Assembly (NCBI GenBank): GCA_030531245.1
Contig: JAUNOA010000019.1
Coordinates: 1 to 32,721, forward strand
Direction: 5' to 3'
Source: Lachnospiraceae bacterium
Lineage (GTDB): Bacteria; Bacillota; Clostridia; Lachnospirales; Lachnospiraceae
DNA length: 32,721 nucleotides
Below are positions 16,227 to 32,721 of the stretch, piece after piece; the first letter of the stretch is position 1, and the number at the start of each line of letters is the position of its first letter. The notes under the pieces are model-generated. The model was not told the origin of the DNA and ran no database searches. It was given only the letters and a program-made list of their open reading frames with translations. Both the position numbers and the translations under genes were made by a program.

Positions 16227-17525
16227 ATGCGCAGAAAACTGAATATTGTAATGCTCCTTATGATGATTATTGTATTTGTATCCGCAACCCCGGTGTATGC
16301 AAGCATGAGCCTGGAGACGGATGCTGCTATCAGCGGTATCTCGGTGGCTCTCAATAATTATTACGCTAGGAATCTTGAACCGGAAAAAGCGCTGGCAGAA
16401 TCGGTACAGATGGTTGCATCCGGGATAATAGAGATCAATGATGAAAAGACCGAGAAGGCAGCTACAAAACTGGTAAAGGATATTACACCTGTGCAGGAAA
16501 CAATAGTGACCAGGGAAGAAGGGGGTGTAACATGGGGAACCGTAAAGGATACGGCCAGCTTAAGACTCAGGGACAAACCGAATTCAAGCGCAAAAACACT
16601 TACGCTTCTTGCGAAGGGAGAGCATTACATAGTAACCGGTCAGGAAGGACAGTTCCTGAAAATCCAGGTCGATGATGATCTTGAGGGATATGTATTCAAA
16701 GACTATATCGATACATCAATCTCATATGATGCGGAGCTGACGGCCGAGGAAAAAGCACAGAAGGAATCGGAATCTGCAAGACTGAAAGCAGAGGCCGATG
16801 CAGCGATGAAAGCTTTGGAAGAGGCAAAGAAGGCGGAAAAGAATAACGAAAAGAAGCCTGAAACAACCAAAGCCGAAGAAACAAAAACCGAAACAACGAA
16901 GGCAGAGGAAACGAAAGAAACCAAAGCCGAAGAAACAACGGTTGAGTCAAAGGCGGAGACTAAAGAAGAAACTCAGGAATCAGTAGAGAAGAAGCCCGAG
17001 ACAACAAAAGCAGAGGAAACAAAAAAGAAAGAACCGGAAACAATTGAAGCGTTGCAGCTGGAAGAAAACACCGAGAAAGAATCAGAAGCGGATGAACCGT
17101 ATGAGGTAGAAGCTCCTGAGACGAAAAAAGAGGAAATATCATCAGGGCCGGGAACTGTAACGAGCGCAACAAGGACAGCATTGGTAGCATATGCAAAGCA
17201 GTTTCTCGGAAATCCATACGTATACGGAGGAACAAGTCTTACAAACGGATGCGACTGCTCAGGATTTACGATGCAGGTATATAAACATTTCGGAATTTCG
17301 ATTCCCAGAAACAGTTCGGCACAGGCTGCATCAGGAACTTCTATTAACGAATCAGATGCACAGCCGGGAGATTTGTATTTCTATGACAGCGGCGGAACAA
17401 TCAATCATGTCGCAATATATATAGGAGGAGGACAGGTTATTCACGCAAGTAATTCTACGACCGGAATTATCATTTCCAACTCACATTATCGTACTCCGGT
17501 AAGAATCTGCTCATACATAAAGTAA
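16227..17525 (+). CDS. Secreted SH3b-NlpC/P60 cell-wall endopeptidase
   Basis: 432 residues. A signal peptide (RRKLNIVMLLMMIIVFVSATPVYA) probably cleaves after residue 25. An SH3b wall-binding domain lies at about 103-160 (LRLRDKPNSSAKTLTLLAKG). Residues about 170-305 form a charged, repetitive Lys/Glu/Thr linker with many TTKAEETK-like units. The NlpC/P60 domain spans about 315-432. C344 (in CDCSGF), H394 (in NHVAIYIG) and H406 form the expected Cys-His-His catalytic set. Family members cut peptide stems of peptidoglycan, typically between D-Glu and the diamino acid. AAGGAG sets the start. Partner of the repeat protein at 13218 is possible but unproven. Confidence 0.93.
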   Translation: MRRKLNIVMLLMMIIVFVSATPVYASMSLETDAAISGISVALNNYYARNLEPEKALAESVQMVASGIIEINDEKTEKAATKLVKDITPVQETIVTREEGGVTWGTVKDTASLRLRDKPNSSAKTLTLLAKGEHYIVTGQEGQFLKIQVDDDLEGYVFKDYIDTSISYDAELTAEEKAQKESESARLKAEADAAMKALEEAKKAEKNNEKKPETTKAEETKTETTKAEETKETKAEETTVESKAETKEETQESVEKKPETTKAEETKKKEPETIEALQLEENTEKESEADEPYEVEAPETKKEEISSGPGTVTSATRTALVAYAKQFLGNPYVYGGTSLTNGCDCSGFTMQVYKHFGISIPRNSSAQAASGTSINESDAQPGDLYFYDSGGTINHVAIYIGGGQVIHASNSTTGIIISNSHYRTPVRICSYIK

Positions 17526-18134: not shown

Positions 18135-18194
18135 TTTTATTCGGAATAAAAAAACGCATAATGCGGAATAAAGCTTGACATTATTCGGAATAAT
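18135..18194 (+). promoter_or_regulatory. Three 22-bp-phased operator repeats (TTATTCGGAATAA type)
   Basis: Site 1 is TTTTATTC-G-GAATAAAA, centred at 18143. Site 2 is the degenerate ATAATGC-G-GAATAAA, centred at 18165. Site 3 is ATTATTC-G-GAATAAT, centred at 18187. The centres are exactly 22 bases apart, two helical turns, so a dimeric regulator would sit on one face of the DNA. Site 3 fills most of the promoter spacer, which suggests repression. Confidence 0.75.
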
Positions 18195-18203
18195 ATCTAC
18201 AAT
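18175..18203 (+). promoter_or_regulatory. Sigma-A type promoter of the HTH-AAA ATPase gene
   Basis: TTGACA (18175-18180), a 17-base spacer and TACAAT (18198-18203). The start of transcription would be near 18210, about 26 bases before the ATG. The spacer contains operator site 3. Confidence 0.85.
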
Positions 18204-18235: not shown

Positions 18236-20101
18236 ATGGTTCCAACAATGAACATCAAAAGAGCAGCCCAGGTATGGTCTCTCAGTGAGCGACGTGTGAA
18301 TGAATTGTGCAAAACTGGCAGAATCGAAGGGGCTCATAAAGAAGATGGCAAATGGGTCATTCCGGCCAATGCCAGAAAACCGGTGGATGAAAGATATAAG
18401 GTATCGGCTCCGCCGTCTTTGCTTGCGCCCGGAAACAGGCCATTACCGATTGGAATAACTGATTTTAAGAAGATTTCAGATGAGTATTTCTATGTGGATA
18501 AGACGCTGTTTATCAAAGAAATATTGGATGAAAAGGCTATAGTCTCCCTGTTTACGCGTCCAAGAGCATTTGGCAAGACGCTGAATCTTGACATGATAAG
18601 GACGTTTTTTGAAATGACGGAGGAAGACAACAGTGTCTACTTCAGAAACAAGAAAATCTGGCTGGAGGGAGAAAAATACCGTGCCTTCATGGGAAAATTT
18701 CCTGTTATTTATCTGGATTTTCGCTCCGTAAGATTTGACGACTGGATTACCGCATACGAAAAAATATCAAAAATCATCATTGGTGAATATGAGAGACACA
18801 GAGTGCTGATGAATTCGGAACGGGTTTCTCAGATGGATCAGTTTTACTTTACAAAGATACTGACAGGAAGATACAGTACATCAGAATTGAAATCATCGCT
18901 CTTTATGCTGACAAAAATGCTTCATGAACATTACGGCGAAGAAGTGATTGTTATAGTTGATGAGTACGATACTCCGGTTTCGTATGCACATAATTTCGGA
19001 TATGAAACCGAAATGAGAGAATTTTTCAGTGACTTTTATTATGAGGGATTGCAGGAAAACAGAAATCTGCGTTTTGCATTTATCTGCGGAATACTGAATC
19101 TGATCGGAGAAGGAATATTCAATCGTGTCTCCAATATAAAAGTCAATTCGGTACTGGACAAAAGATACGGGGACTGTTTCGGATTTACAGACAAAGAACT
19201 GGACGGAATAATCGATTATTTCGGAGCCGAAGTGAAAGAACGCGAGATAAAAAACTGGTACGCAGTATACCAGTTCGGAGAATCCGAAGTTTATAATCCA
19301 TGGTCGATCATGAATTATTTCAACGATGACCTGAGGCCGCTTCCCTTCTGGGAAATGACCGGAGATAACGAGGTTATAAACATCTTTCTGGATAAAGCGG
19401 ATCTGAACATGCTTGAACAGCTTGAGCTTATGATGCAGTCCAAAACGATAACGCTCAGACTGGATACCACATCGATAAATCCCGATGATGATGAAGACCC
19501 GAACGCTCTGTACAGTTACATGATCGCACACGGGTATTTCAAGGCAGTAAAAGCAGAGATGCAGTTTGACGGGGATTATATGTGCCAGATCACGATTCCG
19601 AACAGAGAGGTCTCATTTATGTTCGGAAAGAAAATACTGATACAGTTTGAACCCATTATTCCGAAGGCGACGGCTATGAGCATGAGAGAAGCGATCTATC
19701 GTGCCGATGCGGAAGCGCTCCGCAGCCATATCTACAACCTTATAGTACAGACTATCGGATTTAATTCCGCTGATTCGGACAGGATATTTTATCACGGGCT
19801 TGTGCTTGGACTGTGTTCCATGCTCGGAAACAGATATCATGTTGTTACGGACGGAGATTCGGAAACCGGGAATTTCAGCATAGAAATGATGCCGCTTGAG
19901 ACGAGACTTCCGGGAATACTGATACAGACCAAGAGAGTGCAGATGGGCGAGTCGGGACAGCTTGAAGCGCTGGCGAGATTTGCCTGCAAACAGATAACCA
20001 ACAGACAGTACGATAATGAGTCAAAGATGCGATACATTTCGCAGGCATTAAAATACGGTGTCGCATATAGCGGCACCGCAATAAAAATTGTTATGGAGTG
20101 A
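18236..20101 (+). CDS. HTH-AAA ATPase with degenerate PD-(D/E)XK nuclease domain
   Basis: 621 residues. Residues about 5-47 (IKRAAQVWSLSERRVNELCK, then GRIEGAHKEDGKWVIP) form an excisionase/MerR-like winged HTH. An AAA-ATPase-like domain (PF09820 type) follows from about 70, with a Walker A variant RPRAFGKTLNL (108-118, K114) and Walker B VIVIVDEYD (237-245). The C terminus matches the PD-(D/E)XK domain usually attached to these ATPases (PF08011 type). However, the catalytic Asp of the GRYD motif is S548 (GNFS) and the Glu of the IEFK motif is Q564 (IQTK); K566 remains. Nuclease activity is therefore doubtful. There is no good ribosome site. Such proteins are multicopy in Lachnospiraceae; their function is unestablished, with defence or mobile-element roles proposed. 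Confidence 0.85.
   Translation: MVPTMNIKRAAQVWSLSERRVNELCKTGRIEGAHKEDGKWVIPANARKPVDERYKVSAPPSLLAPGNRPLPIGITDFKKISDEYFYVDKTLFIKEILDEKAIVSLFTRPRAFGKTLNLDMIRTFFEMTEEDNSVYFRNKKIWLEGEKYRAFMGKFPVIYLDFRSVRFDDWITAYEKISKIIIGEYERHRVLMNSERVSQMDQFYFTKILTGRYSTSELKSSLFMLTKMLHEHYGEEVIVIVDEYDTPVSYAHNFGYETEMREFFSDFYYEGLQENRNLRFAFICGILNLIGEGIFNRVSNIKVNSVLDKRYGDCFGFTDKELDGIIDYFGAEVKEREIKNWYAVYQFGESEVYNPWSIMNYFNDDLRPLPFWEMTGDNEVINIFLDKADLNMLEQLELMMQSKTITLRLDTTSINPDDDEDPNALYSYMIAHGYFKAVKAEMQFDGDYMCQITIPNREVSFMFGKKILIQFEPIIPKATAMSMREAIYRADAEALRSHIYNLIVQTIGFNSADSDRIFYHGLVLGLCSMLGNRYHVVTDGDSETGNFSIEMMPLETRLPGILIQTKRVQMGESGQLEALARFACKQITNRQYDNESKMRYISQALKYGVAYSGTAIKIVME
20050..20078 (-). terminator. Terminator for fba, nested in the 3' end of the HTH-AAA gene
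   Basis: Read on the - strand: CGGTGCCGC (20078-20070), loop TATAT, GCGACACCG (20064-20056, one G-U pair), then TATTTTAAT. It lies within the last codons of the convergent gene. There is no comparable T-run on the + side. Confidence 0.6.
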
Positions 20102-20108
20102 TCAGAGA

Positions 20109-21089
20109 TCAGTCATGATAATGATTCTTTCCTGCACATCCGAGTACATCAACAAGCTTATGACGAACCATCTCCTTGATGTTTGCTCTTGCCGGTTTTA
20201 AGTACTCACGCGGATCGAATTTGTCAGGATGCTCATTGTAGAACTGACGGATGCTTCCTGTCATAACAAGACGGATATCGGAATCGATATTGATCTTGCA
20301 GACTGCAGACTTGGCTGCTTCACGAAGCTGAGCCTCAGGAACACCTACTGCATCAGGCATCTTGCCGCCGTTTTCATTGATGATCTTAACCCATTCCTGA
20401 GGAACAGATGATGATCCGTGAAGAACGATCGGGAATCCCGGAAGTCTCTTAACAACTTCATCAAGGATGTCGAAACGAAGTGGAGGCGGAACGAGGATAC
20501 CATTCTCATCTCTTGTGCACTGCTCAGGTTTGAATTTGTAAGCACCATGGCTTGTTCCGATAGCGATAGCAAGAGAATCACAACCTGTAGCTTTAACGAA
20601 CTCTTCAACATCGTCAGGTCTTGTATAAGATGAGTCCTCTGCGCTAACCTTGACATCGTCTTCAACACCTGCAAGAGTACCGAGCTCTGCCTCAACAACT
20701 GCACCGTGTGCATGAGCATATTCAACGACTTTCTTTGTAACTTCGATATTCTCTTCGAAAGGCTTGCTTGAAGCATCGATCATAACAGATGTGAAACCGT
20801 CATCAACGCATGCTTTGCAGATATCGAAATCTGAACCGTGATCAAGGTGAAGGCAAACTTCGAGTTCCGGATAGCACTCAAGAGCTGACTTAACTAAGTT
20901 TACAAGGTATTTGCTGTTTGCATATGCGCGGGCACCTTTTGAAACCTGAAGGATAACGGGAGCGTTTTCCTCGTAGCAAGCTTCTGTGATACCCTGGATG
21001 ATTTCCATGTTGTTAACATTGAAAGCACCAACGGCGTATCCACCATTGTAAGCCTTTTTGAACATTTCTGTAGATGTAACTAATGGCAT
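20109..21089 (-). CDS. fba: Fructose-bisphosphate aldolase, class II
   Basis: 326-residue zinc-dependent aldolase of glycolysis/gluconeogenesis, splitting fructose 1,6-bisphosphate into glyceraldehyde 3-phosphate and dihydroxyacetone phosphate. VGAFNVNNMEI at the start and HLDHGSDFD (D83 proposed catalytic, H84 zinc ligand) are diagnostic. EAELGTLAGVED, GTSHGAYKF and IVLHGSSS contain the other zinc and phosphate-binding residues. Start ATG at 21089 has GGAAGGAG upstream on the - strand. It is convergent with the HTH-AAA gene, with only 7 bases between stops. Class II enzymes of this subtype are common in Clostridia. Confidence 0.97.
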   Translation of the reverse strand: MPLVTSTEMFKKAYNGGYAVGAFNVNNMEIIQGITEACYEENAPVILQVSKGARAYANSKYLVNLVKSALECYPELEVCLHLDHGSDFDICKACVDDGFTSVMIDASSKPFEENIEVTKKVVEYAHAHGAVVEAELGTLAGVEDDVKVSAEDSSYTRPDDVEEFVKATGCDSLAIAIGTSHGAYKFKPEQCTRDENGILVPPPLRFDILDEVVKRLPGFPIVLHGSSSVPQEWVKIINENGGKMPDAVGVPEAQLREAAKSAVCKINIDSDIRLVMTGSIRQFYNEHPDKFDPREYLKPARANIKEMVRHKLVDVLGCAGKNHYHD

Positions 21090-24996: not shown

Positions 24997-25099
24997 GGTC
25001 AAATTTGATGATTTTATGAGAAATCCTATATATTCGGTAGTGAAAAAGTGGTTGTATTTATGATATACTGCTTATACATTAAATGAAATGGGAGACTAT

Positions 25100-25366
25100 A
25101 TGCCAGCATTAAGTACATTTTTTGGAATAATTGTATATATGTATAAAGAATCAGGTGGAAAACATTCCGTTCCGCATATTCATGTAGAGTACGGTGATGA
25201 AGATGCTGTTTATGATTTTGATGGAAACATTATTGAAGGAGATATTCCAAAGGCAAAGCAAAAACTCGTTGAAGCATGGATAGAAATACACAAAGAAGAA
25301 TTAAAAGCCAATTGGATCCTTTTAGGAAGAGGAGAACAATTCTTTAAAATTGATCCGTTGAAGTAA
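25100..25366 (+). CDS. DUF4160 family protein (intact copy of a tandem pair)
   Basis: 88 residues. MPALSTFFGIIVYMYKES, VPHIHVEYGDEDAVYDFDG, IIEGDIPKAKQKLVEAW and IHKEELKANW match the DUF4160 pattern. An upstream in-frame ATG at 25088 was rejected because GGGAG (25090-25094) sits between the two and serves the ATG at 25100. The next gene is DUF2442. The two families commonly occur side by side and have been suggested to be toxin-antitoxin-like, but I know of no established biochemical role. A -10-like TATACT is at 25064-25069 with no good -35. Confidence 0.85.
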   Translation: MPALSTFFGIIVYMYKESGGKHSVPHIHVEYGDEDAVYDFDGNIIEGDIPKAKQKLVEAWIEIHKEELKANWILLGRGEQFFKIDPLK

Positions 25367-25377
25367 AGGTGATAATG

Positions 25378-25623
25378 ATGAAAAGACCGGATATAATCAG
25401 TGTTGTTGGAAAACCAGATAAAACATTAGAATTAGGATATTCTAATGGTGAAAGAAGAATATTTGATGTAAAACCATATATTGAAGGAAGCTGGTTCGGA
25501 GAATTAAGTGACGATTCATACTTTAGATCAGTACATATCATTAATGGTGGAAAAGGTATAGAATGGTCAAATGGTCAGGACATAGCTCCGCATGAACTAT
25601 ATGAACTCAGTATATTGTTATAA
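25378..25623 (+). CDS. DUF2442 family protein (first copy)
   Basis: About 81 residues. LELGYSNGERRIFDVKPYIEG, WFGELSDDSYFRSVHI and GIEWSNGQDIAPHELYEL fit DUF2442, a small alpha/beta domain of unknown function. Possible starts are GTG 25369, ATG 25375 and ATG 25378; AAAGG at 25365-25369 best serves 25375 or 25378. It begins a few bases after DUF4160, so the two form a two-gene operon ended by the hairpin at 25629. Confidence 0.85.
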   Translation: MKRPDIISVVGKPDKTLELGYSNGERRIFDVKPYIEGSWFGELSDDSYFRSVHIINGGKGIEWSNGQDIAPHELYELSILL

Positions 25624-26070: not shown

Positions 26071-26340
26071 ATGTATATAGAAAATGGAATTGCATACGCA
26101 GGAGAAAAGGCACCCATGCTTAAGGTGTATGGTATAAGACCCATGAAGGATTATAAGCTTTGGTTAAGATTCAGTGACGGGACAACAAAAGTCTTTGATT
26201 TTACACAAATGCTTGATAAACCTGCATTTGCTCCGCTGAAAAATGTGGAACTGTTTAATAAAGTGTATTTAGATTATGGAGTTCCGGTATGGAATGATGG
26301 AGATATTGATATTGCTCCGGAATATCTGTATGCAAATTAG
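26071..26340 (+). CDS. DUF2442 family protein (second copy)
   Basis: 89 residues, intact. MLKVYGIRPMKDYKLWLRFSDGTTKVFDFTQMLD, FAPLKNVELFNKVYLDYG and PVWNDGDIDIAPEYLYAN fit DUF2442. It starts 13 bases after the end of the broken DUF4160 frame, with GGAG at about 26061-26064. It probably depended on translation of the upstream gene, so the new stop may lower its expression by polarity. If the pair is a toxin-antitoxin system, the partner that stayed intact would be the candidate antitoxin, but this is inference. Confidence 0.82.
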   Translation: MYIENGIAYAGEKAPMLKVYGIRPMKDYKLWLRFSDGTTKVFDFTQMLDKPAFAPLKNVELFNKVYLDYGVPVWNDGDIDIAPEYLYAN

Positions 26341-31196: not shown

Positions 31197-31820
31197 ATGG
31201 TATATTCATATTTGAAAAATAATTACAAAGAAGGTGAACCGGTTTTCCTGACAGATATTCAGATAGACGGCATGAGCGAAGGGAACTTAAGATATCATCT
31301 TAAGAGTCTGACAGATCAGGGACTTATCAACCGGTTTGATTCGGGTATCTACTATATTCCTCAAAAAGATCTTTTGAATAATCCGGTAAAGATTTCTGCT
31401 GAGACAGTGACAATTCATAAATATATTAACCGTCACGGCAAACATATCGGATATTATTCCGGATATACACTGGCAAACAGGATGGGAATGTCTACACAGG
31501 TTCCGTTCAAAGAGGAGATTACAAGCAACTATGCTGCAGCACCAGTAAGAGAAATCAAGGTTGGAAACAGAACATATGTCATCCGCCGTCCCGTAGTTCC
31601 GGTAACGGAGGAGAACATACATGTACTGCAGCTTCTGGATTGTCTTAAAGATCTCGAAAAATCATCAGAAATCAATCTTAAAGAGTGTGGAAAGATTCTG
31701 ACGCAGTATGCAAAAAAGCACCACATCACAAAAGAAATGATTGATAAGTACATAGGCCATTATCCATTAAAGATTTTCAAGGCTATTTATGACACGGAGG
31801 TTAAATATGTTCCTGCATGA
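31197..31820 (+). CDS. AbiEi-like antitoxin (DUF6088-type transcriptional regulator)
   Basis: 207 residues. An N-terminal winged-helix domain (residues about 1-55, with FLTDIQIDGMSEGNLRYHLKSLTDQGLINRFDSGIYYIP) is followed by a C-terminal domain with HKYINRHGKHIGYYSGYTLANRMGM. This matches antitoxin/regulator proteins of AbiE systems, which bind promoter DNA and counter the AbiEii nucleotidyltransferase. It overlaps the toxin gene by 14 bases. The ribosome site is weak, which is unusual for an antitoxin expected to be in excess. Confidence 0.82.
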   Translation: MVYSYLKNNYKEGEPVFLTDIQIDGMSEGNLRYHLKSLTDQGLINRFDSGIYYIPQKDLLNNPVKISAETVTIHKYINRHGKHIGYYSGYTLANRMGMSTQVPFKEEITSNYAAAPVREIKVGNRTYVIRRPVVPVTEENIHVLQLLDCLKDLEKSSEINLKECGKILTQYAKKHHITKEMIDKYIGHYPLKIFKAIYDTEVKYVPA

Positions 31821-32721
31821 TGACAGAGATAATTTCAGAAACCTAATAGAGCAGGTTGTGAACGAAACGGGTAAAGCCGGAGCAGTCATTGAAAAAGATT
31901 ACTATGTGACGCTTATACTGAGATTTCTTGCCGAAAGAATGGATAATGTTGTATTTAAAGGCGGAACTTCATTATCTAAAGGGTTCCACGCGATAAACAG
32001 GTTTTCAGAAGATATAGATATCACCTTCAGTGTACATATCGGAGAGGCAAGGAGAAAGAAACTGAAGAACACGGTTATAAAGAGTATCAGTGAAACCTTG
32101 AATATGCCGATTTTCAACTGGGATTCAACTCAAAGCGACAGGGACTATAATGAATACCGTTTCTCGTATGAATCGGTTTTCAATATTGATGATGACAGAA
32201 TACCTGATTCTGTAAAAATGGAAACGGCACTTGGATCATATTCTTTCCCGACTGAAAGGGTTTTGATCGGAAATTATATCGGCGACTACCTTTTGAAAGC
32301 GGGTCGGGATGATCTTGCCAGAGGATTTATGCTGGATACGTTTTACATGCAGCTTCAATCTATCAATCGGACTTACATAGACAAGGTGTTTGCCCTGTGT
32401 GATTATTATATTGAAAGAAAGTCAAAGCGTTATTCACGGCATCTATATGATATAAAGAAGCTGACACCCATGCTTAGTTTCGATGATGAGATGAAGAAAT
32501 TATTTGAGGAGGTCCGTCTGCACAGATCCGGTATGGTGGTTTGCCCCTCTGCACAGGAAGCTGTGAATATCCCGGAACTAATCAGAGAATTCTGCGATAC
32601 AGATTTTTACCAGAAGGATTATCAGGATATTACAGAGTATTTTACAGATGATTTAATAGAGTACGAGGAATGCAAAAAGCAAATGCTTGCCATCGCTTCG
32701 TGGATAGAATCGATAAAATAA
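31807..32721 (+). CDS. AbiEii/AbiGii-type nucleotidyltransferase toxin
   Basis: 304 residues, complete, ending at the last base of the window. The motif FKGGTSLSKGF (50-60) and FSEDIDIT with D69 and D71 (66-73) are the nucleotidyltransferase motif I/metal-site residues of AbiEii (DNA polymerase-beta-like fold). The conserved KSKRYSRHLYDIKKL stretch lies in the C-terminal half. AbiE systems are type IV toxin-antitoxin modules that can abort phage infection; some family toxins block tRNAs by adding nucleotides. The ATG at 31807 follows GGAGG (31796-31800). An in-frame ATG at 31789 lies before this ribosome site. Confidence 0.88.
   Translation: MFLHDDRDNFRNLIEQVVNETGKAGAVIEKDYYVTLILRFLAERMDNVVFKGGTSLSKGFHAINRFSEDIDITFSVHIGEARRKKLKNTVIKSISETLNMPIFNWDSTQSDRDYNEYRFSYESVFNIDDDRIPDSVKMETALGSYSFPTERVLIGNYIGDYLLKAGRDDLARGFMLDTFYMQLQSINRTYIDKVFALCDYYIERKSKRYSRHLYDIKKLTPMLSFDDEMKKLFEEVRLHRSGMVVCPSAQEAVNIPELIREFCDTDFYQKDYQDITEYFTDDLIEYEECKKQMLAIASWIESIK

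Follow-up and report, generated by a model that had tools for sequence, protein, structure and literature searches.

The window, that is, the whole stretch of 32,721 nucleotides analyzed here from a Lachnospiraceae bacterium, carries at 18135-18203 a group of repeated sites and a promoter-like sequence in front of an intact open reading frame of 621 amino acids. The preceding gene ends at 17525 and the following one (20109-21089), on the opposite strand, reads as a fructose-bisphosphate aldolase; no small gene that could encode a type II toxin-antitoxin partner was evident between the neighbours at the locus. Elsewhere in the window we observed an AbiEi/AbiEii pair (type IV toxin-antitoxin/abortive infection; 31197-31820 and 31789-32721, with PADLOC E-values of 3e-76 and 1.9e-75) and small genes (25088-25366 with 25369-25623, and 26071-26340) that we take to resemble DUF4160/DUF2442 pairs, possibly toxin-antitoxin-like. 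The features of the locus, with their conservation in the ortholog L074 described below, are the following:

18137-18149 (centre 18143), no strand assigned: putative operator site 1, exact TTATTCGGAATAA; 13 of 13 bases conserved in L074
18159-18171 (centre 18165), no strand assigned: putative operator site 2, TAATGCGGAATAA, imperfect; 10 of 13 bases conserved in L074
18175-18180, plus strand: -35 hexamer TTGACA; 6 of 6 bases conserved in L074
18181-18193 (centre 18187), no strand assigned: putative operator site 3, exact TTATTCGGAATAA; 13 of 13 bases conserved in L074
18198-18203, plus strand: -10 hexamer TACAAT; TATAAT in L074
18236-20101, plus strand: intact open reading frame, 621 amino acids, winged HTH, AAA-ATPase_like and degenerate PD-(D/E)XK-like domains
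18248-18364, plus strand: HTH domain, residues 5-43, with helices at 7-14 and 18-27 and a beta wing at 34-43
18446-19120, plus strand: AAA-ATPase_like domain (PF09820), residues 71-295, E=7.5e-38
19763-20089, plus strand: PD-(D/E)XK_9-like C-terminal domain, placed by alignment to relatives, in which the catalytic D and E are substituted

The preliminary description had presented the repeats as three palindromes. Their positions and their centre-to-centre distances (22 and 22 bp) hold, but site 2 agrees with the motif at 11 of 13 positions and is palindromic at only 4 of its 6 arm positions, so that the term palindrome suits it less well than strong right half-site (TGCGGAATA). The location given there for site 3, between TTGACA and TACAAT, is confirmed: its first base is also the first of the 17-bp spacer, which it fills, and the two hexamers are the sequence of the region that most resembles a promoter (11 of 12 positions). 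The same position within the spacer is used across the HTH family. With up to one mismatch allowed, the window contains five strand-matches to the TTATTCGGAATAA motif, where shuffled sequences predict 0.07. In the 1.84-Mb Lachnospiraceae genome, the pair pattern CGGAATAAN{2,30}CGGAATAA occurs solely at this array, with no occurrence of the reversed-pattern control, and the pattern combining promoter and site was found once. A single exact TTATTCGGAATAA copy on another contig (C44) lies within coding sequence, and single copies arise by chance. A global regulon was also considered and is unsupported, since the other exact genomic sites are single and located in coding DNA and the promoter-plus-site pattern occurs only once.

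The encoded protein joins a DNA-binding domain to an ATPase. The open reading frame contains a further in-frame ATG at 18248, and the recognition helix of its HTH reads SERRVNELC. This domain matches HTH_17 (PF12728) with E=3.7e-4 and 21.1 bits, under the curated cut-off of 27 bits, which is passed by the close homologs L070, L075 and L120. Its AlphaFold2 model is a winged HTH (pLDDT about 81-85) that lacks a MerR dimerisation helix or coiled coil; the nearest solved folds are lambda Xis (Z 6.4) and BldC (Z 6.3), over 45-51 residues and with a Foldseek E-value of 0.3, although Z scores below 8 may reflect a common arrangement only. Sequence searches gave no credible solved relative of the HTH, the PPR matches of its profile being spurious 15-residue hits, and Avs3, the top match for the fold of the whole protein, was discarded as weak (E 2e-3, TM 0.3, with a model pLDDT of 66). 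Residues about 50-70, modelled with low confidence, probably form a flexible linker. The Walker A (TRPRAFGKT) and Walker B (VDEYDTP) motifs are both intact and agree with the family patterns RPRxFGK[TS] and DEYD. The intact PD-(D/E)XK catalytic residues of the PF09820/DUF1703 AAA-nucleases are lacking: the nuclease motif YDI..MELK of the relatives reads FSI..IQTK both in the window protein and in its ortholog, and PF08011, which matches L075, L077, L087 and L088, does not match the window protein. PADLOC defence-system models gave no match to the HTH-ATPase gene.

L074, from Candidatus Darwinimomas equi (Lachnospiraceae), lies between the same neighbours as the window gene. Both proteins share 80% of their amino acids (91% in the HTH domain), with a dN/dS of 0.083 at a dS of 1.47, and the dN/dS of 0.079 in the degenerate nuclease region indicates purifying selection. 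Conserved yet catalytically changed, the region points to a function distinct from the cutting of DNA in this lineage. At the DNA level, (i) sites 1 and 3 are unchanged in L074 at 26 of 26 bases, (ii) the 22/22 spacing is kept, (iii) the distance to the ATG is the same (99 bp), (iv) site 2 retains TGCGGAATA alone, and (v) the 200-bp upstream flanks are 48% identical. To judge from this comparison, the footprint pattern has the appearance of a functional operator.

We searched 299 family genomes with the CGGAATAA-pair pattern and, independently, with the HTH protein. Both searches converged on common loci, which encode HTH-Fic rather than HTH-AAA proteins. The resulting collection comprises 93 loci with such HTH genes: AAA, Fic and other fusions (N6 and C5 DNA methylases, phosphoglucomutase, galactokinase, sigma-like, LuxR-like and kinase/receiver proteins) as well as lone HTHs. 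The question raised beforehand, whether arrays in relatives are tied to HTH-AAA genes, thus had a wider outcome: HTH-Fic, HTH-methylase and lone-HTH genes are likewise preceded by related sites. As a marker, the two-copy CGGAATAA pair was abandoned because it is unspecific and also occurs in coding DNA; a 21-bp pair common to six genomes lay inside homologous coding sequence at the three loci opened (L012, L021 and L036).

The repeats upstream of the Fic and AAA genes tend to be phased. HTH-Fic genes are preceded by two or three, and up to five, TTATTCCGATAA-type copies, and within their 200 upstream bases repeat distances of 20 bp (17 genes), 22 bp (14) and 42 bp (14) stand out against 0.3-0.4 expected; the corresponding distances for AAA genes are 21 bp (7 genes) and 22 bp (6), against 0.7 expected, and none stands out for lone HTH genes. 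Using the own spacer site of each AAA gene as query, few upstream copies appeared at 22 bp and seven at 32 bp, and this 32-33-bp class widens the two-turn rule to whole turns. The fixed two-turn period proposed beforehand thus holds here and in the ortholog, but the apparent rule common to the family is looser, namely distances near whole helical turns (20-22, 32-33 and 42-44 bp), and 22 bp is an instance of it. Seven AAA genes, where 0.8 would be expected, also have upstream repeats 12 bp apart, a spacing outside the two- and three-turn rule (L057 and L065 are examples). Upstream copies are not universal in the HTH family, so that cooperativity is not required family-wide.

The spacer site is shared more widely. 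Most family genes, with any effector or a lone HTH, have a 17-bp spacer starting with TT[AG]TTC[CG], replaced in some AAA subgroups by TTTCGnnCGAAA or TGCGAAA; the spacer measures 17 bp in 63 of the 79 scored family promoters. When the spacer length was left free, 44 of the 79 family genes (AAA 11/29, Fic 18/21, other fusions 7/16, solo HTHs 8/13) had TTC starting at the fourth base of the spacer, against 4 of 85 control ORFs. The AAA fusions L045, L047, L048, L075 and L087 have no clear spacer site. In the reverse direction, the pattern TTGN3TTATTCSGN9TAN3T gave 42 matches in 200 genomes against 7 for the reversed pattern; an HTH was encoded 51-84 bp downstream at 19 of the 30 loci opened, some of them already among the 93 and others new (e.g. 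L140, L152, L155, L156, L157, L162 and L164), and a further one of the 30, L142, proved to be an HTH-Fic gene stripped of its HTH. Beyond the family, an HTH was present at 6 of 25 pattern loci, and the association that these counts indicate is thinner there but persistent.

Several of the loci merit separate mention. At L142/L134 (G067:C1) an HTH-Fic relic has lost the HTH coding part and retains a Fic fragment, the phased operators and the promoter. At L098, L100, L116, L107 and L117 the fusion partner of the HTH is a solitary DNA methylase (N6 with TaqI_C, D12-type or C5), and most of these genes have a TTATTC spacer site, a parallel to the autoregulation of M.SsoII. The HTH is also fused to metabolic enzymes, a galactokinase-like protein of the same genome as the window (L073, 1492-2898, G000:C98) and phosphoglucomutases of relatives (L104 and L105, 442-2001), and the promoters of these three genes lack the TTATTC spacer site. 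Fusions to sigma-70 regions 2 and 4 (L095, L112) and to a LuxR-type GerE domain (L081, L103) may offer a route that couples self-repression to a wider regulon.

If the HTH recognizes the spacer site of its own gene, both should vary together. For pairs of different effector class, HTH identity correlated with spacer identity (rho 0.31) and with neither of the adjacent 17-bp flanks (rho -0.05 and -0.04), and of 56 genes whose recognition helix has two arginines (ERR/DRR), 44 had TTC at spacer position 4, against 2 of 18 genes with other helices (Fisher 4e-7; dereplicated p=2e-5), values which, the sequences being related, overstate independence. Proteins of the ERR type go with a TTATTC site and those of the KRT type with TTTCGctCGAAA. 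Within the AAA genes alone, the correlations for the spacer (0.24) and for the upstream flank (0.23), which often carries further sites, are equal, so that this subset is not decisive. Despite the inflation by relatedness, the covariation signal spans effector classes.

These observations bear on the possibility that the array is bound in trans by a different regulator, either another host HTH or a protein of a resident element, while the N-terminal HTH serves some other DNA-binding task. Many relatives have lone proteins with this type of HTH and closely similar spacer sites, which makes cross-regulation conceivable. Nevertheless, between genes of different effector class the spacers are the more alike the closer the HTHs are, as self-recognition would give, and, at the sensitivity of our search, the genome encodes just one further HTH of this type, the HTH-galactokinase, whose promoter has no matching site. 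Self-binding is thus the simplest reading, and we regard regulation by another protein as improbable. The earlier proposal of self-regulation through the N-terminal HTH is supported by the comparison, in which the putative operator goes with the HTH rather than with the effector, and the spacer covaries while the flanks do not.

An even less probable alternative is activation in the manner of MerR, in which the HTH would sit between the -35 and -10 hexamers and untwist a spacer that is too long. In its favour are the position of site 3, as in MerR regulators, and the modelled winged HTH, apparently of the MerR/Xis type. However, MerR-type promoters have spacers of 19-20 bp, whereas the 17 bp found here, and in most of the family, is already optimal, which argues against such activation and for steric repression; the dimerisation coiled coil of MerR regulators is also absent from the model of the window HTH. 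Chance, or non-regulatory AT-rich low-complexity intergenic DNA, can practically be dismissed as the origin of the repeats: chance does produce single copies and pairs of copies in genomes, but the array is unique in this one with a control of zero, the 26 bases of sites 1 and 3 are kept at a dS of about 1.5 beside diverged flanks, and its association with HTH genes is recurrent.

Taken together, these results indicate that the array is most probably an autorepression operator of the HTH-ATPase gene that it precedes. The analysis shows the array itself, the promoter match, the domains of the protein, the conservation, and the association and covariation of HTH and operator site; from these we infer the following course of events, including binding, repression, cooperativity, the role of the linker and the inducing signal. 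The N-terminal winged HTH would bind TTATTCGGAATAA, and occupancy of site 3 in the 17-bp spacer would block RNA polymerase. Sites 1 and 2, which lie two repeats and one repeat farther upstream on nearly the same face of the helix, would raise the occupancy locally, probably by way of several HTH domains joined by an oligomerising ATPase part and the flexible linker. Expression would thereby stay low and self-limiting, until repression is relieved by a change in the effector part, which might be its nucleotide state, its oligomer, a ligand or a phage protein. In the family, the HTH together with its spacer operator would form a single transferable unit attached to many effectors.

Self-silencing of enzyme genes through a fused HTH is already known. 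CccR of Yersinia pseudotuberculosis represses its own promoter via inverted repeats at -35/-10, and mutation of the repeats causes derepression (PMC9755527). Like the window protein, it carries effector (Fic in CccR) and HTH in one chain. Its HTH belongs to another type and lies at the C terminus, unlike that of the HTH-Fic relatives found here, which is N-terminal; its operator is AGATAATCAT-N26-ATGATAATCT with no phased array, and the effector of the window protein is an AAA ATPase instead. The methylases M.SsoII and M.Ecl18kI, likewise enzymes with an N-terminal regulatory region, bind a 15-bp quasi-palindrome and compete with RNA polymerase at their own promoter (PMC3978073); they differ in their operator (AGGACAAATTGTCCT), which is a single site, in also steering a restriction gene and in their effector. 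As in these autorepressed fusions, in the window gene HTH and effector form one polypeptide and a putative operator with dyad symmetry (site 3) overlaps the own promoter. BldC and the phage or ICE excisionases (lambda Xis, RdfS) bind DNA cooperatively (PMC11963761, PMC5859096); in BldC and RdfS there is about one protomer per DNA turn, and the sites are direct repeats or loosely conserved (PMC11963761). In contrast, the window array has near-palindromic sites about two turns (22 bp) apart, its HTH shares 13-17% sequence identity with BldC and Xis, and the gene is not linked to recombination. The description of the DUF1703 (PF09820-PF08011) AAA-nucleases makes no mention of an N-terminal HTH (PMC1913061), and the window protein differs from them in having lost the catalytic D and E. 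In the literature searched, we found no description of these HTH fusions, of this HTH family or of its operator sequences in this setting; the two papers in which such strings occur deal with unrelated subjects.

Beyond the single locus, it is rather probable that Clostridia possess a portable cassette made up of a winged HTH of about 55 residues and a co-evolving operator in the 17-bp spacer of its promoter, joined to many unrelated effectors, in which helix and operator change together and to which the AAA and Fic branches add helically phased upstream operators for cooperative repression by an oligomer. AAA-nucleases, Fic proteins, N6/C5 methylases and sigma-like and LuxR-like regulators would all be effectors of this cassette. 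Such an operator rule would apply to a large unstudied set of HTH-fused proteins of gut Clostridia: the spacer would reveal which genes silence themselves, and the recognition helix would predict the operator site. The matched HTH-operator pairs would constitute a natural series for the evolution of DNA specificity and may open a route to what switches on the HTH-Fic and HTH-AAA-nuclease effectors.
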